64,000 bases of DNA, from positions 1,116,001-1,180,000 of the forward strand of contig NZ_OY762512.1 in assembly GCF_963665995.1 (NCBI RefSeq), given 5' to 3'. The notes under the pieces were generated by a model. It was given only the letters and a program-made list of their open reading frames with translations. It had not been told where the DNA came from and did not search any database. This stretch comes from Pleurocapsa sp. FMAR1. GTDB taxonomy: Bacteria > Cyanobacteriota > Cyanobacteriia > Cyanobacteriales > Xenococcaceae. Positions 10,092 through 23,768 of the stretch are shown piece after piece. Both the position numbers and the translations under genes were made by a program. The stretch's first letter is position 1; every line of letters starts with the position of its first letter.

Positions 10092-11363
10092 ATGAGTGAA
10101 GAACAATTTTCTATACTGTTGGTTGACGATGACAAAGTCGATCGCCTAGCAGTCAGACGAGCTTTAAGCAAAGCTGGTTTGATGGCGAATTTAACCGAAG
10201 CTAAGAATGGCGCAGATGCAATGTCTGAGCTAAAGGTTAGGCAAAATTTTGGCGGTGTTGACCAAGTTAATTGCTCTGACTCAGCTTCCAATTATCTTGG
10301 ACATATTTTTGATTTGGTACTGCTCGATTATCGTTTGCCAGATATTGATGGTTTACATTTACTTTCTCAGATCAAAGCTTTTAATCTATATTTGCCTGTC
10401 ATAGTTTTAACGGGACAAGGAGATGAAGAAATTGCCGTCGAGATCATGAAGGCAGGAGCAGCAGATTACTTATCAAAAGCCAAAATTGAACCAAAAGGTT
10501 TAGCTAAGGCAATAAACAGTGCTGTTCGGATTCATAAAGCAGAACTGGCAGTGGAATTGATAAATAAACGTCTGCGTATTAGCAATGAATTATTGATATT
10601 CAAAAATCAAGAATTAGAAAGACAGCAAGAACAAATTAAGCTCCAGAATGTCCAGCTACAAGAATCCTACAAACTCAAGTCCGAGTTTTTGGCAACCATG
10701 TCCCACGAATTGCGGACTCCCATGAACGCTATTATGGGCTTTTCTCAGCTTTTATTGCGCCAATACGGCGATCCTCTATCTGAGCAACAACAAAACCTTA
10801 TTCAGCGCATTTTCAGCAACAGTAAAAATTTGTTAGATATGATCAATGAAATGCTCGACTTTTCTAAGATAGAGGCAGGCAGATTAGAAATTAGACCCCA
10901 AAGATTCAATCTAGGCAATTTAATTAATTTAACTATTGAAGAGCTACGTTCTTTAGCTGTCCAAAAACAGCTTGATTTAACAGCAGAGGTAAAGTTAAAA
11001 GATTCCTATATTGTTCAGGATGCTAATTTCATTAAAAGAATCATCGTTAATCTGGTTTCTAATGCCATAAAATTTACTGATATAGGAACAGTAAAAATTA
11101 AGGTTTGGGAAATAGATCCAGACAAAATTGCGATCGCCATTACGGATACGGGAATCGGCATCGCTCCAGTAGATAGAGATAAGATATTTCAGGCCTTTCG
11201 CCAGTTAGATCAAGGCTTCACCCGCCAACATTCTGGAACAGGCTTGGGTTTGGCTATTACCAAGTCTTTAGTAACTATGATGGGGGGCAAAATTAACCTA
11301 GAGAGCCAACTTGATGAGGGTTCGACTTTTACTATAGAAATACCTCGCAAGTATGATGCCTAA
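10092..11363 (+). CDS. sensorless hybrid histidine kinase (REC-HisKA-HATPase)
   Basis: A 423-residue soluble protein counted from the ATG at 10092 (a GTG lies one codon upstream). Domain order: receiver (about 8-145, phospho-acceptor near D79 in LVLLDYRLPDIDG, with a roughly 20-residue insertion before it), coiled coil (about 155-195), HisKA with phospho-accepting His near 205 in MSHELRTPMNA, and HATPase_c with NLVSNAIKF, DTGIGI and GTGLGLAI. There is no PAS, GAF or membrane domain, so input probably comes through the receiver. It lies between an Rcp1-type regulator and a second kinase of the same design, which suggests a local phosphorelay. Confidence 0.9.
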   Translation: MSEEQFSILLVDDDKVDRLAVRRALSKAGLMANLTEAKNGADAMSELKVRQNFGGVDQVNCSDSASNYLGHIFDLVLLDYRLPDIDGLHLLSQIKAFNLYLPVIVLTGQGDEEIAVEIMKAGAADYLSKAKIEPKGLAKAINSAVRIHKAELAVELINKRLRISNELLIFKNQELERQQEQIKLQNVQLQESYKLKSEFLATMSHELRTPMNAIMGFSQLLLRQYGDPLSEQQQNLIQRIFSNSKNLLDMINEMLDFSKIEAGRLEIRPQRFNLGNLINLTIEELRSLAVQKQLDLTAEVKLKDSYIVQDANFIKRIIVNLVSNAIKFTDIGTVKIKVWEIDPDKIAIAITDTGIGIAPVDRDKIFQAFRQLDQGFTRQHSGTGLGLAITKSLVTMMGGKINLESQLDEGSTFTIEIPRKYDA

Positions 11364-11418
11364 ATCTCAGAGTGTTAGTTAGATTAAGTGGTATTTATGT
11401 ATAATATTTTACTAAGCA

Positions 11419-12489
11419 ATGTCTGTTACACAGCCCACAAAAAGCAACTATATTTTAGCCGTAGATGATATTCCTGATAATCTTTTATTGATTCAGCTTT
11501 CCCTAGAACAAGAAGGTCATCGAGTTGTTGTGGCTAATAACGGCAAAACAGCTTTAAAACAGATTAAAAAAGCTCCTCCCAGTTTAATTTTATTAGACGT
11601 GATGATGCCTGGGATGGACGGTTATGAAGTCACACGACGCATTCGCGAAGACCGCAATATTCCCTTTATTCCCATACTGTTGGTTACAGCTAGAGAGGAA
11701 TCTAGCCTAGTTGAAGGATTGGATGCAGGTGCAGATGAATTCGTGCGCAAACCTTTTCAACTAGATGAGTTACAGGCTAGGGTGCGCTCTATGCTCAGGC
11801 TGAAAGAAACAATAGACCAAAGAGAAAACTTTGTATCTTGTCTGACTCACGATCTTAGAACACCACTGGTAGCTGCTAACCGAATGCTAGATTTAATTCA
11901 GCAGCAGGCATTTGGTGAGGTTAACAATGAGCAGAAAGAAGCGATCGCCAGTATCCTCAGCAGCAATCAAAATATGCTACAAATGCTCAATACCCTATTA
12001 GAGACTCATCAATATGAATTGGGGCAAAAAACTCTAAGCTTTATCCCTGTAAATCTTCAGCAGCTAATAGTCGAAGTAGTAACTGAACTTCAGCCATTAG
12101 CAATTGAAAAAGGAATAGAGTTAAAGCAAAATATAGCTTCAGAAGTGCCAGAAATTAAGGGCGATCGTCTTGAACTGCGCCGAGTTTTTACCAATTTGAT
12201 TGGCAACGCCATTAAGTTTACCGACAAGGGTGCAGTAAAAGTATCTTTAGATCACAATAAGTCTCAGGTATTAGTTACGGTTAAAGATACGGGAATTGGT
12301 ATATCCCCACAGGATCAAAAGGCTGTTTTCCAACGCTACCATCAAGGCAACCATAGACGATCTGGCAAAGGCTTAGGACTCTATCTGTGTCAGCAAATTA
12401 TTAATGCCCATCAAGGACAAATTACGGTGACATCCGAAGTCGGTAAAGGTGCTACTTTTTCTTTTTGGTTTCCCAAACAATTATCCTGA
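11419..12489 (+). CDS. sensorless hybrid histidine kinase (REC-HisKA-HATPase)
   Basis: A 356-residue protein with an N-terminal receiver (12-128, phospho-acceptor D60 in LILLDVMMPGMDGYE, Lys in VRKPF), a HisKA helix pair with H144 in LTHDLRTPL, and a C-terminal HATPase domain (NLIGNAIKF, DTGIGI, GKGLGLYLCQQI). The THDLRTPL H-box differs from the SHELRTP of the upstream kinase. No sensor or membrane segment is visible. It starts 55 bases after the previous kinase gene and probably shares its transcript, giving a cassette of three receivers and two kinases without an obvious input domain. The downstream gene is convergent. Confidence 0.9.
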   Translation: MSVTQPTKSNYILAVDDIPDNLLLIQLSLEQEGHRVVVANNGKTALKQIKKAPPSLILLDVMMPGMDGYEVTRRIREDRNIPFIPILLVTAREESSLVEGLDAGADEFVRKPFQLDELQARVRSMLRLKETIDQRENFVSCLTHDLRTPLVAANRMLDLIQQQAFGEVNNEQKEAIASILSSNQNMLQMLNTLLETHQYELGQKTLSFIPVNLQQLIVEVVTELQPLAIEKGIELKQNIASEVPEIKGDRLELRRVFTNLIGNAIKFTDKGAVKVSLDHNKSQVLVTVKDTGIGISPQDQKAVFQRYHQGNHRRSGKGLGLYLCQQIINAHQGQITVTSEVGKGATFSFWFPKQLS

Positions 12490-14212: not shown

Positions 14213-14857
14213 TTAAATAGAAAAAGATCTAACTGCTTCTTTGTCTAAATTTAAATAGATATAATCTTCATCCATACGAGCGATCGCCGACATGGGTAAG
14301 GTTAATTCTTTTTTGTGCCATAAATGCCCCTCTTCTAGTACCAAATGAGTAATGTGCTGATCCTGGGGATCGAGCAAAAATTCTTCTACCCGCCCAATAT
14401 GTCCGTCGGTGGCTTCTACTGATGCACCTCTGTGTATCGCTATCTCCCCAGCAGGAATTATTTCCTCTTCTACTGGCATAGAGAATATATCTGTACTCAT
14501 ATCTCCACTCATAGTTGGATCGGACCACATCAAATAAGAAGTGCGATCGGCGATCGCTTTGTCGCTAAAGTCTTCTAATGCTTCATACTTATACGTAACA
14601 GGATTGAGAAACCGCATTTCAGTAAAAGGAGGCATAGCAGCCAATTCCTCTTTAGTACAGCTTAAGGCAATAGATTCGGGGGTAGTTCTCACAACTCGGT
14701 CAATCGATACCAAATATTTATGAGACTCTAAGAAATTAGAAACTTTGACTACAAAGTGAGTTACTTTTTGACTATTGCGCTCGATAATTACATGAGTTGA
14801 TTTACCGCATTCACCATCAACACAGACAACTTTTGCATCTAAAGAAATTTCTTTCAT
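14213..14857 (-). CDS. PRC-barrel domain protein
   Basis: A 214-residue soluble protein with two PRC-barrel-like halves: 3-60 (SLDAKVVCVDGECGKSTHVI, then KVTHFVVKV) and 130-205 (GASVEATDGHIGRVEEFLLD and HITHLVLEEGHLWHKKELTLP). The repeated pattern of a GxxG turn followed by VTHxVV is characteristic. PRC barrels occur in the RNA-processing factor RimM and the photosynthetic reaction centre H subunit; stand-alone duplicated forms are common in cyanobacteria and have no settled role. The ATG follows GGGTAAGGAAA, a reasonable ribosome site. Monocistronic in appearance. Confidence 0.8.
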   Translation of the reverse strand: MKEISLDAKVVCVDGECGKSTHVIIERNSQKVTHFVVKVSNFLESHKYLVSIDRVVRTTPESIALSCTKEELAAMPPFTEMRFLNPVTYKYEALEDFSDKAIADRTSYLMWSDPTMSGDMSTDIFSMPVEEEIIPAGEIAIHRGASVEATDGHIGRVEEFLLDPQDQHITHLVLEEGHLWHKKELTLPMSAIARMDEDYIYLNLDKEAVRSFSI

Positions 14858-15075: not shown

Positions 15076-15666
15076 TTACCAAAAAGTTAAATCAGGAAAC
15101 AATATGGCATCTATAGAATATAGCCCTGGTCCAAATACCGCAATTAGCATCATGATTAAAACGTAAATAAAGGCTTTTTCCCAGCTTGGTCCTTCAGCTT
15201 TGCCATGTGGTCCTTTATAATCGTCGGCAGGAGTTAAATAAGGATCTTGAGCAATAAAAGGTTCACCCCCCATAATTTCTAGTATCATAGCAAATGCCAT
15301 CGAGCCTAAAATACCGATGCTAGCTAATAGAGTTAGAAAACCAGCAATTAAGCAAAATCCGCCAAAAAACATGGTCGCTGCACCAATAACACAGAGCCAA
15401 ATCGGCATATTATTAAGTGACTTAGACCACTGCTTTAGGTGAGTCAGCTTGGGATATGCGTGACGCACGAAGATAATGCCCATGCAAACCCGAAAAATTA
15501 ATAAAATTATGCTTTTAAATACTCCTGGGAAACTATCACTAGGATAGATTAAAGCAAATGAACTTGTAGCCGATAGGGCAGGAATTTTTAGTAAGATGCC
15601 GCTAGTTATCAAAAAAGCAACTACAGCAACTGCAATATAAATAAATTTGCTTATAAATTTGCTCAT
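15076..15666 (-). CDS. DoxX-family membrane protein
   Basis: Read from the ATG at 15666 this is a 196-residue protein with about five hydrophobic helices. It begins MSKFISKFIYIAVAVVAF and contains the DoxX block (FRVCMGIIFVRHAYPKL, then FGGFCLIAGFLTLLASIGILG). A hydrophilic loop (DPYLTPADDYKGPHGKAEG) separates the last helix. DoxX-like proteins are small inner-membrane proteins often encoded with oxidoreductases and quinone- or thiosulfate-related redox functions; the activity here is unknown. It is the last gene of a seven-gene run. Because of a single-base shift near the end of the SMP-30 gene, the literal reading frame runs from SMP-30 straight into this gene. Confidence 0.78.
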   Translation of the reverse strand: MSKFISKFIYIAVAVVAFLITSGILLKIPALSATSSFALIYPSDSFPGVFKSIILLIFRVCMGIIFVRHAYPKLTHLKQWSKSLNNMPIWLCVIGAATMFFGGFCLIAGFLTLLASIGILGSMAFAMILEIMGGEPFIAQDPYLTPADDYKGPHGKAEGPSWEKAFIYVLIMMLIAVFGPGLYSIDAILFPDLTFW

Positions 15667-15686
15667 TATTTTCCAATTTTTAATAT

Positions 15687-16596
15687 TCAATGTATTTGTA
15701 AGCCTCTTGTATTGGTGTCGATCGCATATAAGAGAAGTTTTAGCCGTAATAAACAGGCGATTTTTCTCTTTACCGCCGAAAGTAAGATTAGTGCATACTT
15801 CTGGCACGAAGATTTTACCCAAGCGAGTACCATCGGGGGCATATACCTGTACGCTATCGGCAGAACTGGTAAAAATATTGCCATGCACATCTACGCGAAA
15901 TCCATCAGGTTCGCCTGGTTCTATAGTTGCAAACACGCGACCCTCTTCTACATAGCGATTTTCCCTCACTTCATAAACGCGGATATTGTGAAGCTGCTGG
16001 GGATGTTCGGCAGCAGAAGTATCGGAAACATATAGCAGACTTTCATCGGGGCTAAAAGCAATTCCGTTGGGTTTTTCCATTTCTTTAATTACTGCATCTA
16101 TTTCCCCCGTCGCAGGATCGAAACGATAGACAAAATCTCCAGCTTGTTCTTGTTCGCCCCCGTACCCTTGGTCTTCGTGAGTGATCCCGAAAGTTGGGTC
16201 GGTAAACCAGATCGTCCCATCGCTTTTTACTACTAAGTCATTGGGACTATTAAAACGTAGACCCCAAGCGCGATCTATTAAAACTCGCCACTCACCATCT
16301 GCTTCGCGTCGGATAATTGCCCGTTGACCCTGAGAACAGGCGACAAGACGACCTTCGAGGTCGCGATAATTGCCACTTTGATAGTGGGATGGCTGACGAA
16401 TCACTTGATCGCCATCAGTCGGACTCCAACGCAACAGGCGGTTATCGTGGGCATCACTCCAAATTACGCTGTCATCCTCAGAAAAATAAACAGGTCCTTC
16501 TCCATGAACCGTTCCACCTGTAAGCTTTTGCAGAGTAGCATCTTGACGCAACAGAGGTTTTAAGCGATCGTCATAAATTTCAATACCTTCAGGCAT
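15687..16596 (-). CDS. SMP-30/gluconolactonase-like beta-propeller, frameshifted at its end
   Basis: A six-bladed propeller of about 300 residues. Metal-ligand positions of the family are recognisable: E33 in HGEGPVYF, N119 in FNSPNDL, N177 in KPNGIAFSPDE and D192 in LYVSDTS. Such enzymes hydrolyse aldonolactones or related esters with a divalent metal. In the literal frame the last residues run SLICDRHQYKR and continue into the DoxX gene. Removing one base near 15729 restores SLYAIDTNTRG and a stop at 15687, the normal family ending. So the gene either carries a real 1-base insertion or a sequence error; the catalytic part is complete either way. It starts 35 bases after the cupin gene. Confidence 0.82.
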
Positions 16597-16631
16597 AATA
16601 AGTCAACCTTATTAGCAATAGTTTTCTAGAT

Positions 16632-17078
16632 TCAAGCAAAGTCACCAGGTTGTGCAGCTAGCCATTTCTCATCTTTTAGCTGCACTACCATTAGTACTGC
16701 TGGCTCATCACCTACAGTACCCGATAAATGACCTTTATGTCCTTTTTCATTGGGTTTGGTTTTTTGGTCGCCACCAAAAGAAACCTCCCCAGCACCCATT
16801 TCTACACGAGTGCCATCTGTTGTCTCGACAAACCATTTACCAGACAAAGGCACGATCCACTGGGGCTTAGGGTTTTCATGCCACTGACCCACCCAGCCAA
16901 CTGGCTGGACGGTAAATAAAATCTCTGCATCACTAGAAAGCAGATGATCATTCCACTGGGGATCGGCACCGCCACCCATACTTTCTTTGGCAAAGTTGGT
17001 CAATTCACATTGAGTTTGGTGACTTATACCATCTTCGTCTGTCCATACGTGCCAGTATTTTACTTTTGGCTTGCTCAT
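16632..17078 (-). CDS. cupin-domain protein
   Basis: A 148-residue protein built around one cupin barrel (about 48-140). The centre contains GQWHENPKPQWIVPLSGKWFVETTDGTRVEMGAGEVSFGGDQ, whose His, Glu and Gln residues resemble cupin motif 1 metal ligands, and later HKGHLSGTVGDEP corresponds to motif 2. It is likely a metal-binding isomerase, dioxygenase or binding protein; the substrate is not predictable. It lies 57 bases after the aldo/keto reductase stop and 35 before the SMP-30 gene, so it is within the same transcriptional run. No signal peptide. Confidence 0.83.
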   Translation of the reverse strand: MSKPKVKYWHVWTDEDGISHQTQCELTNFAKESMGGGADPQWNDHLLSSDAEILFTVQPVGWVGQWHENPKPQWIVPLSGKWFVETTDGTRVEMGAGEVSFGGDQKTKPNEKGHKGHLSGTVGDEPAVLMVVQLKDEKWLAAQPGDFA

Positions 17079-17135
17079 GTTTTTTTAGCTTTTTTATGAT
17101 AAATCAAATAAGAACGCGAGGTTATAGTGCTTGAC

Positions 17136-18095
17136 TTATGAAGGCATTAATTGCTGAAGTTTCTCTGGTTCTTCTCCCAGCCAATCAGGATTTTGGGCAG
17201 TGCTGTCAAAAATTGAAGAGGTTTTAAATGGCTCAAATTCTCCTTTCGCTCCTGCCTGTGCTGTTTTATCTAATAACGATTGTACCTGTTGTTCGTCCAT
17301 TGGCTCAAAGCTACTTACGGCTTCAAATGCTTGGTCGAGAATTTCGAGACTATCAATTCCAGTGATTACGACCGAGGTGGGTAAATTGAGAGCATAATGC
17401 AGACATTCGATGGGAGTAGCAGTATTGGAGCGTAAAAGTATACCGTTTGCCATAGTTTTCATCGCCAAAATGCCGATATTTTGTTTAACTAATTCTGGAA
17501 CAACTAACTTAGCAAAGCTACGGTAATGAGCATCCATTACATTTAAAGGCATTTGAACTGTATCAAACTGAAAGTCGTTTTCGGCTGCCACTTCGAGCAT
17601 ATGTAGATGAATTTGGGGATCTTTATGTCCCGTAAAGCCGATATATCGCAGCTTGCCAGCTTCTTTTGCTTCGATAAAAGCTGCATGAGCGCCCTGTTCG
17701 TCAAATACTCGATGTGGGTCTTCGTAGCGGATAATCTCGTGATACTGGATGAGATCGATGCAATCTACTTGATGACGCTGTAAAGATTCGTCTATCTGTT
17801 TTGCCGCTTCTTTTTTCGAGCGACCATCAATTTTGGTCATCAAAAACGCTTTTTCTCGATAGCCATCGCGAAGAGCTTTGCCCATGCGTTTCTCACTGAC
17901 TCCATCATTGTAATCCCAACTATTATCCATAAAAGTGATACCGCGATCAATCGCTGTACGAACAATTCGGATACCTAGCTGCTCATCGACGTTTGGCAAG
18001 CCGATATGCCAACCGCCCAGTCCTATGGCTGAAACCTTTTCTCCTGTATTACCAAGCTCTCGATATAGCATTTGTGATTGACTATTAGCTGACAT
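17136..18095 (-). CDS. aldo/keto reductase
   Basis: A 319-residue TIM-barrel NADP(H)-dependent oxidoreductase. The catalytic tetrad is present: Asp and Tyr in FMDNSWDYNDG (about 55-65), Lys in FLMTKIDG (about 85-92) and His in DLIQYHEI (about 114-121). The N-terminus YRELGNTGEKVSAIGLGGWHIG is typical. The C-terminal segment, with VVITGIDSLE and a long acidic tail, belongs to the branch often described as a 4Fe-4S-free YdjG/YhdN-like reductase. It probably reduces or oxidises a sugar or small carbonyl. It is fourth in the minus-strand run, 68 bases after the VOC gene. Confidence 0.88.
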   Translation of the reverse strand: MSANSQSQMLYRELGNTGEKVSAIGLGGWHIGLPNVDEQLGIRIVRTAIDRGITFMDNSWDYNDGVSEKRMGKALRDGYREKAFLMTKIDGRSKKEAAKQIDESLQRHQVDCIDLIQYHEIIRYEDPHRVFDEQGAHAAFIEAKEAGKLRYIGFTGHKDPQIHLHMLEVAAENDFQFDTVQMPLNVMDAHYRSFAKLVVPELVKQNIGILAMKTMANGILLRSNTATPIECLHYALNLPTSVVITGIDSLEILDQAFEAVSSFEPMDEQQVQSLLDKTAQAGAKGEFEPFKTSSIFDSTAQNPDWLGEEPEKLQQLMPS

Positions 18096-18163
18096 TTTTT
18101 TCCTTTCAATTTATTTTTGTACTTGAACTTTATTAATCTGAGTTGGATATGTTTAAGAGTAAT

Positions 18164-19111
18164 TTAGACAGTGATTAACATCATTGCGTGTCCATTAGGA
18201 TCTTTGACGATGCAAGCTTGAGAATAAGGATAGGAGTTGGGAAACTGGATGATTTTAGGCGAGATAATTTCGACTCCGTTTTCTCGCAGGGTATTTACTG
18301 CTAAATCGATATCCTTAACTACAAGCTGTACTTGCATAGATGCAATATCGTAACTTTGCCAATCATCGGCAAACGGACGACCAGTTCCAGGGACGATATA
18401 GTCGAGTAATTCTATTCCCAAACCTTTTTTTTTTGGTCGCGTTCCTGTCACTCGCACTTTGGCTTCTGCTAAGCCATCAAGATGAGCCTGAATTTCGCCA
18501 GAGTTGATATTGCTTTCTTCTACCTCCATCCCTAAAAGATCTCGATAAAATTTGAGACTCTGTTCGGTATCGGCTACAGCGATCGCACTATGATCAATGC
18601 CTAAAAATAATTCTTCCGTGTTTTGCTGCCACTTATCTTTACTAAGCTCAGGTGGAAACCAAATTATTTCTAAATCGTGACCGTCTGGGTCTTTAAACTT
18701 AAAGGCACGTATGCCATTCGGAAGAGTTTGTAGTCCGCTAGAAATTGGCTCGATCTCAAAAGATTTTACATGGTCGTAAGCGCGATCTATATCGCTAACA
18801 ACGATCGCCAGATGTTGAAACCACAGATCATTACTCTGGGAATCAGTTGGAATGGGTTTTCCCTCGATGTCAAGATACTCGATAAGCTCGATCACTTCAT
18901 CCCCAAGCTGCAATGTAACAAGCCGAATTTTAGTCGCTTTTATTCCTTCCAATTCGCTGTAGTAACTTTCTTCGAGCGTAATATCTGAAACTAATTTAAA
19001 TGAAAACGCTTCAGTATAAAACTTGAGCGATCGCTCTGCATCGCTTACTGTTGAACCAATAGCTCGAACTTTTTGTACTTGAACGTCATCAGTCTGTGTT
19101 GAAATAGTCAT
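18164..19111 (-). CDS. double-VOC (glyoxalase/dioxygenase superfamily) protein
   Basis: A 315-residue protein made of two vicinal-oxygen-chelate modules (about 10-155 and 170-315). Each has the pattern of an early His or Ser (GSTVSDAERSLKFYTEAF; HSAIAVADTEQSLKFYRDLLG) and a late Glu in a DPDGHDLEIIWF or DPNGHAMMLI block. Candidate metal residues in module 2 are His in GIDHSAIAV and Glu/His nearby; module 1 has lost the first His, so only one site may be active. It may be an extradiol-dioxygenase, epimerase or glyoxalase relative. Its ATG overlaps the stop of the upstream gene (ATGA), a sign of translational coupling. Confidence 0.82.
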   Translation of the reverse strand: MTISTQTDDVQVQKVRAIGSTVSDAERSLKFYTEAFSFKLVSDITLEESYYSELEGIKATKIRLVTLQLGDEVIELIEYLDIEGKPIPTDSQSNDLWFQHLAIVVSDIDRAYDHVKSFEIEPISSGLQTLPNGIRAFKFKDPDGHDLEIIWFPPELSKDKWQQNTEELFLGIDHSAIAVADTEQSLKFYRDLLGMEVEESNINSGEIQAHLDGLAEAKVRVTGTRPKKKGLGIELLDYIVPGTGRPFADDWQSYDIASMQVQLVVKDIDLAVNTLRENGVEIISPKIIQFPNSYPYSQACIVKDPNGHAMMLITV

Positions 19112-19374
19112 CTTCGTAAACCTTTAAACCAAAGCCAAATCCCTGCTCCTGCCATAATTAATAAGGCAAGAGCATTATAAAATGGATAAAAAGAACTCAA
19201 GTCAATTATCCCAAACTTACCAGTATGGATATCCATTAACCATCCATACTGGTCGTCTTTTCCTGCTAAATCCGCTATGTGGAAAAGCCCACCTGTTATT
19301 GGAGTCAGGATTAGAGGAATAATTACAAAGGGAGCAAGGCTATATTTGATCTTTTTTAGACGACTGGCACGCAT
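19108..19374 (-). CDS. small PepSY-associated-type membrane protein
   Basis: An 88-residue protein with a basic head (RASRLKKIKY) and two hydrophobic helices (about 13-35, LAPFVIIPLILTPITGGLF, and 64-84, ALALLIMAGAGIWLWFKG) around a loop containing LAGKDDQYGWLMDIHTGKFG. The WLMDIHTGKFG motif and the SLFHIAD-like segment match short cyanobacterial PepSY-TM proteins related to iron/flavin reductases. There is no heme His pair beyond the single His in the loop. Stop and next start overlap by 4 bases, so it is translationally coupled to the VOC gene. A membrane redox or anchoring role is inferred. Confidence 0.7.
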   Translation of the reverse strand: MRASRLKKIKYSLAPFVIIPLILTPITGGLFHIADLAGKDDQYGWLMDIHTGKFGIIDLSSFYPFYNALALLIMAGAGIWLWFKGLRR

Positions 19375-19414
19375 TTTTTTAGTGACGATAATTTGCTTTA
19401 AACTATTATCACTC

Positions 19415-20287
19415 TTAAGCTGATAACTGTCCGCCAGTTACGTCGTAAAGTGCGCCTGTCACAAAGCTACTGTCAGAACTACCTAAGAAAACATAAGCAG
19501 GAGCTAGTTCTTCTGGTTGAGCAGTACGCTTGATAATACCGTCACTATCGTAGTTATCTACTTGCTTTGCCGTCATCGTCGCGGGAATATTAGGAGTCCA
19601 AACGGGCCCTGGTACGACGGAATTAACTCGAATACCGCGATCGCCTAAATTCAATGCCAAAGATTTGGTGAAAGTATGGACTGCACCTTTGGAAGTGGCA
19701 TAATCAACTAGAAAGTTTTTACCCATTTTGCCGACAATGCTACCAGTATTGATAATCACATCACCTTCTTCTAAATGAGGCAATGCAGCCTTGACCATAT
19801 AAAAATAGCCAAATACATTGGTTTCCATCGTGCGACGAAACTGTTCTAAGGTAATATCTTCAAACTTCTTCTGCACCATTTGGTAAGCAGCGTTGTTAAT
19901 TAAGATATTTAACTTACCAAAACGCTCTACTACCTGGGCGATCGCCGACTCACAATCTTCATAGTTGCGAACGTCGCCTTTGATTATCAGGCAGTCTTTA
20001 TTACCAATATCTTTGACCATTTTTTTAGTCTCTTCCGCATCGCCATCATTTACGTTGTAGAAGATAGCTACTTCCGCTCCTTCCATGGCATAGGCGATCG
20101 CCACAGCGCGACCAATACCAGAGTCTGCACCAGTAATAAATGCCACTTTTCCTTTGAGTTTTCCTGCTGGGGAGTAGTTAGACAGATCGCTATCTGGCTG
20201 TGGAGTCATATCCGCTTGAGAGGCTGGATAATCTAACTGCTGTGGTGGAATATCATCGGGAGTTGGACGACGTTCTTTGGTTACCAT
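19415..20287 (-). CDS. SDR-family oxidoreductase (YghA/glucose-dehydrogenase-like)
   Basis: A 290-residue classical short-chain dehydrogenase with a 45-residue N-terminal extension typical of the YghA/GsgR group (RRPTPDDIPPQQLDYPASQ). The cofactor motif TGADSGIG spans 52-59, NNAA 131-134, and the catalytic Ser-Tyr-Lys are S183, Y196 and K200 (YATSK). The oxidised substrate in this group is a sugar or small alcohol with NAD(P)+. It heads the minus-strand run, so its upstream region (20288-20664) should hold the promoter. ATG with an upstream GAGACAAAA ribosome site. Confidence 0.9.
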   Translation of the reverse strand: MVTKERRPTPDDIPPQQLDYPASQADMTPQPDSDLSNYSPAGKLKGKVAFITGADSGIGRAVAIAYAMEGAEVAIFYNVNDGDAEETKKMVKDIGNKDCLIIKGDVRNYEDCESAIAQVVERFGKLNILINNAAYQMVQKKFEDITLEQFRRTMETNVFGYFYMVKAALPHLEEGDVIINTGSIVGKMGKNFLVDYATSKGAVHTFTKSLALNLGDRGIRVNSVVPGPVWTPNIPATMTAKQVDNYDSDGIIKRTAQPEELAPAYVFLGSSDSSFVTGALYDVTGGQLSA

Positions 20288-20664: not shown

Positions 20665-21705
20665 CTAAAGGATTGTGCCACTAAAGATACTTTGCTTTAC
20701 CTCACTCGTAAACATACCATAAGGAAAAACCAGATCGGGCGCACTGCTCTGTTTTAGTGTCTGGATTTGGTCTGGGGCAAAGCGGATTGACAACGAAGAT
20801 AAGTTATCATGCAGGTGTTCGAGCTTGCTAGCACCCAGGATAGGCGCGGTGATGCTAGGCTGTGCCGAGACCCAAGCCAGGGCGACTTGCGCCAGCGGGC
20901 GATCGATCTCAGTGGCAACCGTTCGCAGGGCATCGAGTATGCGCCAATTGCGATCGGTGAACTTAGTAAACTTTCCCTCGAAGGGATTACTATTGCTGAG
21001 TCGTCCCTGTCCGTTAGTGTTCTCAAGACTATACTTACCAGTGAGGAATCCACCTGCAAGCGGACTCCACGCGCAAATGCCAAGACCACATTCGCGGGCG
21101 GCGGGGATATGTTCGTTTTCAATATTGCGCTCGACAAGAGAATATTCAACCTGCAAGGCAATAGGTGCAGGAACATTAAAGGCAGTGGCAAGCCCAACAG
21201 CTTTAGCAGCATACCAGGCTGGTACATCTGAAAAACCGAAGTAGCGAATTTTGCCAGCGCGTACCAAATCGCCGAGTGACTGTAGTACTTCCTCAACAGG
21301 TGTCACCATATCCCAAGCGTGCATCCAGTAAAGATCAATATAGTCAGTTTTAAGACGACGTAGCGACCCTTCAATTGCCCGATACATATTCTTTCGTCCG
21401 TTGCCCCCCGCATTTGGATTGCCCGATTTGCCACCATGAAAGGTGAACTTTGTCGCAAGTACCAGATCGTCGCGTAGGCTGCTATGGTTGATATAGCTGC
21501 CGATTAATTCTTCACTGCGACCCTGTGCATATATATCAGCGGTGTCGATAAAATTCCCACCCGCCTCGACATAGGCGTGAAAAATAGACTGGGAAATTTC
21601 ATCAGACGCTCCCCATCGTTGCGTGCCGAAGGTCATAGTACCGAGAGCCATAGGACTGACGATCAGTCCAGAGTGACCAAGGGTGCGAAAATTAGTAAGG
21701 TTCAT
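20665..21705 (-). CDS. aldo/keto reductase, GC-rich, possibly transferred
   Basis: A 346-residue NADP-dependent aldo/keto reductase. Catalytic residues D54 and Y59 (NFIDTADIY), K86 (LATKF) and H129 (LYWMHAWD) are all present, and the AHGGKSGNPNAGG-like loop near 88-103 is a feature of the YajO/Tas-like group. Late motifs APILGASKLEHL bind the cofactor phosphate. The DNA is clearly richer in G and C than its neighbours and has long open frames on the other strand, unlike the local background. It is followed 3' by a hairpin and preceded by the MDR gene at 56 bases, so the two form a transcription unit. Confidence 0.9.
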   Translation of the reverse strand: MNLTNFRTLGHSGLIVSPMALGTMTFGTQRWGASDEISQSIFHAYVEAGGNFIDTADIYAQGRSEELIGSYINHSSLRDDLVLATKFTFHGGKSGNPNAGGNGRKNMYRAIEGSLRRLKTDYIDLYWMHAWDMVTPVEEVLQSLGDLVRAGKIRYFGFSDVPAWYAAKAVGLATAFNVPAPIALQVEYSLVERNIENEHIPAARECGLGICAWSPLAGGFLTGKYSLENTNGQGRLSNSNPFEGKFTKFTDRNWRILDALRTVATEIDRPLAQVALAWVSAQPSITAPILGASKLEHLHDNLSSLSIRFAPDQIQTLKQSSAPDLVFPYGMFTSEVKQSIFSGTIL

Positions 21706-21761
21706 AAGATTTTATTCTAAATAAAACAGCAAAGTTAATCGAGATATTTTGTTGACGTAAA

Positions 21762-22775
21762 CTACACTAGTTCGATGACGATTTTGCTAAAAAGATCTGA
21801 TGAGGACTGGGCTTGAAAAGCATTTTTAGCATCCTCAAAATCAAATTTGCGATCTATCGGTGGCTTAATTTTATGTGTTTCAATTTCTTGGGATAAAGCT
21901 TTATACATTTCGGCACTGCCAACAGAACTACCACGAATGGTAATGCCTTTACTCATTAGCGGGTTAACGTCTGGGGGACTATCGCCATTTGTCATCAGTC
22001 CAATGAGGGCGACTTCGCCACCGTAGCCAGCAGCAGCCAGAGACTGATTTAGTGTACCTGTTCCGCCAACATCAACTACTTTATCGACCCCCCCCGTCCG
22101 CTCGAACACCGCACTGCCCCAATTCAAATTGTCTTGATAGTTGATGGCATCACTAGCACCAAGCTCAATTAATCGCTGCATTTTAGTATTTTGACTCGAT
22201 GTGGCAATTACTTCAGCACCTGCGGCCTGGGCAAAAAGTAGAGCGAATAGTGAAACCCCGCCACTGCCTAAAACTAGAACTTTGCTGTTGGTTTGAATAG
22301 GATGGTCGCCGTAAAGAGCATTCCAGGCTGTAAGTGCAGCGCAGGGAAGCGTAGCTGCTTCAGCATAATCCAAACTTGCGGGTGCGGGTACGATACGGTC
22401 AGCGGGTAAGACGACATATTCAGCCAACATACCGTCTTCGTTGAGCGAACCTAAACCCATGCCGAATCCTGCTTTAACTGGCTCTTTTAGCCAGGGTAAT
22501 AGTAATCCAGTGACGCGATCGCCCACAACCCAATTATCGACCCCAGACCCAACCGCATCAATTTCACCTGACCCATCGGAAACTGGGACGAGATCGCGAT
22601 CGCTTAGCCGACCGAATGGCCCTTTAATCACTAGCTGGTCTCGGGAATTAAGCGAAACTGCGTGAATCCGAATCCGAACTTCGCCCACGCCTGGCTCTGG
22701 CATTGACACATCCTCAAGTACTAACCCCTCAAGATCGGTAGCACCCGCTTTCAAAATCCAACGTTTCATAGTCAT
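21762..22775 (-). CDS. zinc-independent MDR-family alcohol dehydrogenase/quinone oxidoreductase
   Basis: A 337-residue medium-chain dehydrogenase. The N-terminal GroES-like half has LNSRDQLVIKGPFG where zinc enzymes carry Cys and His, so the catalytic zinc is missing, and the Cys tetrad for structural zinc is also absent. The Rossmann half has VLVLGSGGVSLFALLFAQAAGAEV (about 165-188) for NADP(H) binding. Such proteins reduce quinones, enals or similar conjugated carbonyls. It is divergent from the LysR gene with a 96-base shared promoter region, and upstream of an aldo/keto reductase. Base composition again is higher in GC than the neighbours. Confidence 0.88.
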   Translation of the reverse strand: MTMKRWILKAGATDLEGLVLEDVSMPEPGVGEVRIRIHAVSLNSRDQLVIKGPFGRLSDRDLVPVSDGSGEIDAVGSGVDNWVVGDRVTGLLLPWLKEPVKAGFGMGLGSLNEDGMLAEYVVLPADRIVPAPASLDYAEAATLPCAALTAWNALYGDHPIQTNSKVLVLGSGGVSLFALLFAQAAGAEVIATSSQNTKMQRLIELGASDAINYQDNLNWGSAVFERTGGVDKVVDVGGTGTLNQSLAAAGYGGEVALIGLMTNGDSPPDVNPLMSKGITIRGSSVGSAEMYKALSQEIETHKIKPPIDRKFDFEDAKNAFQAQSSSDLFSKIVIELV

Positions 22776-22818
22776 TTTCCTGCTTTATATCCGAATAGCC
22801 TAACTATAGAGCGAATGT

Positions 22819-22840
22819 TATTCTATGACTAGATAGTATA
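22819..22840. promoter_or_regulatory. possible LysR operator between the MDR and LysR genes
   Basis: The 96-base divergent gap contains an imperfect dyad centred near 22829 with arms CTAT and ATAG (823-826 and 833-836) in a TA-rich context. LysR regulators usually bind a T-N11-A dyad next to their own start and control the divergent gene. The pairing is short, so the assignment rests mainly on position. Confidence 0.3.
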
Positions 22841-22871
22841 ATCAATATAGACTTGTGAGAAATATGCAACA

Positions 22872-23768
22872 ATGAGGCGTGACGAACTAACCGATTTATC
22901 TGCATTCGTGATGGTTGCCGACGAGATGAGTTTTACAAAAGCTGCGTCAAAACTGGGAATGTCTCCATCCGCCTTAAGCCATGCTATGAGGTCGCTTGAA
23001 GACAGACTGGGAGTACGATTGTTGGCGCGAACGACCCGAAAAGTATCTACAACAGAGGCAGGTGAAAGACTATTGACAACCTTACGACCTGCACTTAGGG
23101 ATATCAATGCTGGACTAACCGACCTGGGCAAGTTACGGGACAAACCTGCTGGAAACTTACGTATTACCACATCTAAACACGCAGCAATTTCTGTTATCTG
23201 TCCAGTATTGCCTGATTTTATCGATGCTTATCCAGATATTCGAGTCGAGATTACAATTGACGAAAGCCTGAGCGACATTGTTGCCAGCCGTTACGATGCT
23301 GGAATTCGGTTAAGAGAAAAGGTTGCCAAAGACATGATTGCAGTGCGAGTCGGCTCAGATGTGCGAACGGCAGTTGTTGGATCTCCAGCCTATTTTGCGA
23401 CCCACCCCAAACCAAAAACACCCCAAGACCTGGTTGAGCATTGCTGCATCAACTATCGATTTATGACCTCTGGAGGGCTTTATCACTGGGATTTTGAGAA
23501 AGATGGCAGAGCTTTTCAAGTTAGAGTTGATGGATCTCTTGTTTTCAACGACAGCGATCTAATTCTAACGGCTACCTTGGCGGGGCAAGGCATTGGATAT
23601 CTTTACGAGGATCAGATTGCCGAACTGGTCGTCGAGGGTCGGCTAATCCAGATTTTGACAGACTGGTATCCGACCGCTTCTAGCTACTACCTTTATCATC
23701 CTAATCAACGTCAGACCCCAACCGCACTCGCCGCGCTAATTGATGCTTTGCAAGTTAAATCAACATAG
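22872..23768 (+). CDS. LysR-family transcriptional regulator
   Basis: A 298-residue protein. The N-terminal winged helix-turn-helix (about 5-64) includes LSAFVMVADEMSFTKAASKLGMSPSALSHAMRSLEDRLG, and a linker helix is followed by a substrate-binding domain (about 90-295) with IRVEITIDESLSDIVASRYDAGIR. This corresponds to the CrgA/PBP2 subgroup that often senses quinones or aromatic compounds. It is transcribed away from the MDR and aldo/keto reductase genes, the classic arrangement for a LysR and its target. Its GC-rich composition is shared with those two, suggesting that the three were acquired together. Confidence 0.92.
   Translation: MRRDELTDLSAFVMVADEMSFTKAASKLGMSPSALSHAMRSLEDRLGVRLLARTTRKVSTTEAGERLLTTLRPALRDINAGLTDLGKLRDKPAGNLRITTSKHAAISVICPVLPDFIDAYPDIRVEITIDESLSDIVASRYDAGIRLREKVAKDMIAVRVGSDVRTAVVGSPAYFATHPKPKTPQDLVEHCCINYRFMTSGGLYHWDFEKDGRAFQVRVDGSLVFNDSDLILTATLAGQGIGYLYEDQIAELVVEGRLIQILTDWYPTASSYYLYHPNQRQTPTALAALIDALQVKST

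Follow-up and report, generated by a model that had tools for sequence, protein, structure and literature searches.

A minus-strand gene cluster of Pleurocapsa sp. FMAR1 with a recurrent VOC, SMP-30 and DoxX core

Organisation of the cluster

The window analysed here, a 64-kb stretch corresponding to bases 1116001–1180000 of the 5.43-Mb single-contig genome of Pleurocapsa sp. FMAR1, carries on its minus strand a compact gene cluster at positions 15076–20287. In the direction of reading, the cluster begins with a PRK06701-like short-chain dehydrogenase/reductase (SDR) oxidoreductase of 290 residues (19415–20287; Pfam adh_short_C2, E = 5.5e-59), followed by a PepSY_TM-like membrane protein of 88 residues (19108–19374) and a double-domain, glyoxalase-I-like VOC protein (18164–19111; Pfam Glyoxalase) with one complete H100/E148/H174/E234 set. 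Further downstream are encoded an aldo/keto reductase (AKR) of 319 residues (17136–18095; Pfam Aldo_ket_red, E = 6.9e-32), a single-domain cupin (16632–17078), whose variant motif H67-E68-N69-x3-Q73 ... H117 was derived from an alignment of 22 sequences, and finally an SMP-30 domain (Pfam SGL, residues 32–285) and a DoxX domain (residues 365–438) within one open frame of 506 residues in the list of open reading frames (ORFs; 15076–16596). SGL, DoxX, Aldo_ket_red, Glyoxalase and adh_short_C2 all score above the curated Pfam cut-offs, whereas the cupin remains below that of Cupin_2 (22.6 vs 27.2) and the 88-residue protein has no Pfam match. The AlphaFold model of the cupin has a mean pLDDT of 64.3.

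From the SDR gene to the SMP-30/DoxX frame the intergenic gaps amount to 40, −4, 68, 57 and 35 nt, the negative value reflecting an ATGA overlap between the genes of the 88-residue protein and the double VOC protein, as predicted. A minus-strand operon of seven genes had been proposed, and the arrangement on a single strand is confirmed, although not as seven ORFs because SMP-30 and DoxX share a frame. Likewise, the proposed gap range of 20–68 bases holds for the gaps of 35–68 nt, while a gap of 20 nt requires SMP-30 to end at an out-of-frame TGA (15689–15687). The six open frames probably form one transcription unit. The cluster is set apart from the neighbouring ORFs by 218 nt on one side (to 14857) and 377 nt on the other (to 20665), as measured between ORF ends. 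A promoter/terminator scan revealed no clear operon ends, with 26 promoter-like sites compared to 17.8 (sd 4.1) in shuffled sequences and 4 terminator-like sites compared to 7.2 (sd 2.8).

The assignments of SMP-30 and DoxX in the joint frame are clear (163.9 vs a cut-off of 26.3 bits for SGL; 35.9 vs 23.6 for DoxX). Three-frame translation located the end at which SMP-30 proteins of this family usually terminate (...LYAIDTNTRGLQIH, stop) at 15687–15689, in a frame other than that of the SMP-30 sequence upstream. The frame changes shortly before this end, which is why SMP-30 and DoxX appear in a single frame and why the usual C-terminal propeller end is lost. The TGA lies 20 nt ahead of the likely ATG of DoxX, from which the DoxX portion would span 15076–15666, in line with the separate DoxX ORF found in relatives. 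SMP-30 is an ORF of its own in all 27 relatives with an SMP-30 ORF of more than 230 residues, and terminates shortly after (S/A)LYxI; locus L064, where SMP-30 is present in pieces only, stands outside this set. The ORF lists of the genomes G217 and G273 also contain separate ORFs, and a fusion as recurrent architecture was therefore rejected. The frame change in the window is due either to a genuine mutation or to an error of assembly.

A core recurring among cyanobacteria

The distribution of the genes was analysed in 195 genomes of the order, with the window genome counted in every set. Orthologues were delimited by identity cut-offs of at least 54% for VOC (10 of 22 matching genomes), at least 65% for SMP-30 (8 of 60) and at least 79% for AKR (17 of 32); for the cupin all 8 matching genomes were taken. 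Twelve genomes with VOC matches of 40–48% were set aside as paralogues. One of the ten VOC genomes, G129, has a VOC gene adjoining the cupin gene that is cut by an internal stop (locus L025, 9715–10305); relatives with intact copies exist. All eight SMP-30 genomes (65–71% identity apart from the window's own copy) also hold a VOC orthologue (hypergeometric p = 1e-12), always on the same contig, at a distance of at most 1.6 kb in six cases and of about 15 kb in two. VOC and cupin overlap in six genomes (8e-8), SMP-30 and cupin in five (1.4e-6); these p-values overstate the independence of the data because the genomes are related. In the two same-genus genomes G217 and G245, the genes occur in the order cupin-VOC-SMP-30-DoxX-GMC on one strand. 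Stretches around SMP-30 from six of the seven other SMP-30 genomes (all except G271) contain a GMC gene in each case and coxA in three. Since just 3 of the 13 genomes in the genus carry an SMP-30 orthologue, the gene set has to be considered as accessory.

A second set was obtained by a VOC profile scan of named genomes, and the following counts cover the best 80 of 485 confirmed relatives. On the basis of identity and neighbours these loci were split into 46 orthologues and 34 paralogues; L081 (49% identical) was classed as orthologue owing to its adjoining SMP-30 and DoxX genes, which slightly favours the counts. A neighbour was accepted at an identity of at least 45% over half of the query or 100 residues. 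Near the VOC orthologue we found SMP-30 in 27 loci, DoxX in 26 (25 of them shared with SMP-30), the cupin in 14 and AKR in 3, together with genes absent from the cluster in the window: a glucose-dehydrogenase-like SDR, termed SDRb (29), the FAD-dependent dehydrogenase GMC (20), an NDH-2-like flavoprotein (17), coxB (22), coxA (19) and two DUF2231 genes (20 and 21). The name NDH-2-like is our label for a protein that matches Pfam Pyr_redox_2 and passes no NCBIfam model. A frequent, Nostoc-type order is SDR, two DUF2231, coxB-A-C, NDH2-like, VOC, DoxX, SMP-30 and GMC, and glycosidase genes are often found near the core in other cyanobacteria. As a control, eight window genes outside the cluster were treated in the same way; seven of them, a second AKR (AKR2), a zinc-type dehydrogenase (ADH), a LysR-type regulator, a PRC-barrel protein and ORFs of 536, 356 and 240 residues, were near none of the 46 loci, and an ORF of 160 residues was near one. 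The association among VOC, SMP-30, DoxX and cupin exceeds chance; it is firm for the first three and good for the cupin.

AKR was rejected as a core member. Its 17 genomes overlap the VOC, SMP-30 and cupin sets twice each, which is chance level (p 0.15–0.21), and 15 of the 16 other genomes with an AKR relative (79–84% identity; 194 other genomes of the order) are without VOC and SMP-30 orthologues. In two relatives, G249 and L068, AKR adjoins the cupin gene.

For the window genome, no match to coxA, coxB or coxC was obtained inside the 64-kb window, and candidate partner genes lie elsewhere in the chromosome. At 4.25 Mb (L211), a GMC gene is accompanied by GH15, a CDF transporter, a different SDR and a glycine-zipper gene, and at 2.1 Mb (L215) a coxA-like gene stands with coxB, coxC, DUF2231 genes and GH15. 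The genome also contains a second DoxX (55%; L198, 5.22 Mb) and a second double VOC gene (41%; L028, 5.06 Mb), around which no other gene of the cluster was matched within the 19.9-kb stretches.

Across the 218-nt gap downstream of DoxX a PRC-barrel protein is encoded on the same strand (14213–14857). On the other side, AKR2 (−), the zinc-type dehydrogenase (−) and the divergent LysR gene (+) occupy 20665–23768; their GC content of 0.47–0.50 compared to 0.394 for the window is that of a block which is possibly acquired DNA.

Conserved sites and comparison with known systems

The residues H100, E148, H174 and E234 of the double VOC protein are kept in 36 of 36 aligned sequences, and we take this complete 2-His/2-Glu set to be the metal pattern of glyoxalase I. 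The window protein has the two-domain VOC fold but is only distantly related to the two-domain glyoxalase I of maize (PDB 5d7z/6bnx) and to human GLOD4 (16–21% identity), and its score against the glyoxalase I model TIGR00068 (56.6) is far below the cut-off of 120. In VOC dioxygenases the Fe site is presumably located in modules 1 and 4, to which positions 17, 260 and 310 correspond as mapped by alignment only. Position 17 is A, S, T or Y; at position 260, 29 of the 36 sequences have Q and 6 have H; and position 310 is never acidic. Based on this apparent misfit, an extradiol or MhqO-type dioxygenase was rejected as the principal interpretation.

In SMP-30, E33, N119, N177 and D231 are invariant in 28 of 28 sequences, including that of the window; presumably they represent the metal and catalytic residues. 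The domain matches the gluconolactonases of PDB entries 3e5z and 3dr2 with E-values of 1.9e-58 and 8.2e-51 and retains their metal/catalytic positions; a lactonase role is predicted for SMP-30 of the window. It differs from them in running in frame into DoxX, in place of the normal end of its relatives.

The gene order of many relatives, with the core close to a coxB-coxA-coxC set that is preceded by two DUF2231 genes, resembles that of the type-1 alternative respiratory terminal oxidase (ARTO) operon of Anabaena PCC 7120, given in excerpts of the source as alr2729-alr2730-coxB3-coxA3-coxC3 with two extra genes first (PMC6616624). This likeness is one of gene order. It extends to a CoxB without CuA motif: the CxxxC motif, which we regard as the mark of CuA, is absent from 24 of 24 copies, one of which (L041) is cut by a contig end. 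It is on the missing motif that the reading of the enzyme as a quinol oxidase is based. The window cluster differs from the ARTO operon by the absence of an oxidase; the coxA-like gene of the genome is about 1 Mb distant.

A DoxX gene near a VOC gene is also a feature of Mhq/Cat quinone detoxification, and it is found in the window as well as in the 26 orthologue loci mentioned above. MhqO (PDB 3oaj) of the Bacillus/Paenibacillus mhq system shares the two-domain fold with the window VOC, but the metal-site pattern of the latter appears unlike that of MhqO, and the closest regulator gene within the window belongs to the LysR type. In the excerpted text of a Paenibacillus/Bacillus mhq paper, MhqP is an azoreductase and DoxX is unmentioned (PMC12673573).

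All enzyme families of the cluster are already known. The original prediction did not recognise their combination as any described pathway, and no description of the cluster was found in the open-access literature. Because the search was confined to open-access papers and to partly shown lists, this is weak evidence of novelty.

Proposed role and alternatives

The context of the core points to a respiration-linked oxidation of sugars or aldehydes. We tentatively propose, with rather more doubt than confidence, that the cluster is an accessory cyanobacterial redox module in which sugar or aldehyde oxidation and lactone opening are tied to the quinone pool. In this scenario, the dehydrogenases would oxidise an aldose or a related aldehyde to a lactone, SMP-30 would hydrolyse the lactone, and the glyoxalase-I-like VOC protein together with AKR/SDR would clear reactive carbonyl by-products or intermediates. 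DoxX, perhaps with the PepSY_TM-like protein, would provide the coupling to the quinone pool at the membrane. The substrate and the direction in which SDR and AKR work are inferred, and the passage of electrons through DoxX, as well as quinol as donor of the oxidase, would be further elements of the scheme. A more elaborate version, which we regard as unlikely in its full detail, envisages a hitherto undescribed respiratory module of cyanobacteria in which glucosides are cleaved, SDR/GMC enzymes form lactones, SMP-30 opens them, VOC and cupin act on the products, and a quinone-reactive DoxX feeds an ARTO-type oxidase; the window would then contain a compact version, with other dehydrogenase and oxidase parts elsewhere in the chromosome.

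The original prediction had likewise suggested that a sugar lactone or a reactive carbonyl could be oxidised, its electrons reaching the membrane via DoxX/PepSY. This suggestion gains from the oxidase without CuA motif and the NDH-2-like, GMC and SDRb genes near the core in relatives and from the conserved sites of SMP-30 and VOC, but loses in that PepSY-like protein, AKR and window SDR are not constant members and that electron transfer by DoxX/PepSY is an assumption. The SDRb of one relative passes the NCBIfam glucose 1-dehydrogenase model NF005559 (245.1 vs 215).

Several observations weigh against the proposed redox module. The same SDRb also passes the FabG model (228 vs 222), and its substrate is left ambiguous because both models are satisfied. 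The window SDR fails NF005559 (199.1 vs 215), and with 369 vs 413 bits for PRK06701 it is below the NCBIfam cut-offs of both top models checked. It lies away from the core in G217 and G245 and is near none of the 46 VOC-orthologue loci; among the genomes analysed, relatives at 85–88% identity occur in 5 others of the genus. Relatives of the 88-residue protein are widespread (114 of 195 genomes of the order), and the one case seen close to the core is in G245, where the gene lies some 1.3 kb ahead of the cupin gene; this protein, too, is near none of the 46 loci, and in a same-genus relative (L190:7304-7597) PepSY_TM remains below its cut-off (25.8 vs 28.8). AKR is present in two of the eight SMP-30 genomes (p 0.15). 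The SDR, PepSY-like and AKR genes of the window are thus variable passengers. Conserved synteny, whose absence from every relative would have spoken against the original prediction, was recovered for the VOC/SMP-30/DoxX core, with an enrichment of the cupin, but the full seven-gene set is found in none of the loci compared outside the window, and 19 of the 46 orthologue loci, some on short contigs, are without a qualifying SMP-30 gene in the stretch. The neighbouring oxidase of relatives scores as cytochrome c oxidase type in NCBIfam, differing also in this respect from a type-1 ARTO: the one subunit I tested passes the cytochrome c oxidase model (673 vs 671), subunit II has CoxB as best, sub-cut-off match (124 vs 148), and quinol oxidase models score lower on these subunits. 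SMP-30 of the window, judged from its lost C-terminal end, may be damaged. Moreover, DoxX is shortened in G245 (L190, ~11279–11475), where the cupin, VOC, SMP-30 and GMC ORFs beside it are full-length.

Detoxification of reactive carbonyls or electrophiles is a serious rival, to which VOC, AKR and SDR would all be suited; the cluster would then comprise a glyoxalase-I-type VOC, AKR/SDR aldehyde reductases, an SMP-30 acting on toxic lactones and DoxX as a membrane stress protein, and would not serve sugar respiration. We consider this to be somewhat unlikely, given the low TIGR00068 score of the VOC protein, the oxidase, GMC and glycosidase genes that lie near the core in relatives, and the inconstancy of AKR. 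Quite doubtful, in our estimation, is a loose accretion of accessory oxidoreductase genes without a shared pathway, i.e. a genomic island of stress genes. The patchy presence of SMP-30 in the genus, the three variable passengers and the deviating GC content of the neighbouring AKR2-ADH-LysR block would fit an accretion, but the core association recurs across cyanobacterial families and a VOC paralogue accompanies GMC and GH63 in other phyla. Detoxification of quinones or hydroquinones as by the mhq/cat systems of Bacillus, with a ring-cleaving VOC dioxygenase and DoxX as partner, is very improbable, as the site expected in modules 1 and 4 appears not to be kept at positions 17, 260 and 310 of VOC.

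VOC paralogues were recorded in two further settings. An SDR of 66–68% identity is encoded 17–20 nt from a VOC paralogue (42–45%) on the same strand, measured between the matches, in four genomes that belong to one other genus; the SDR-VOC pairing is therefore not unique to the window. The paralogue clade of the profile scan (43–49% identity; 34 loci, L075–L080 and L082–L109) has GMC nearby in 19 and GH63 in 13 loci, in cyanobacteria, Deltaproteobacteria, NC10, KSB1, Burkholderiales and Gemmatimonadetes. With these GMC and GH63 neighbours the balance tips slightly to carbohydrate chemistry.

The proposed redox module offers a lead from genome context to a possible electron supply of cyanobacterial alternative oxidases and to the roles of DoxX and double VOC proteins. 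With VOC paralogues near GMC and GH63 in Deltaproteobacteria, NC10, KSB1, Burkholderiales and others, the theme may reach beyond the cyanobacteria.

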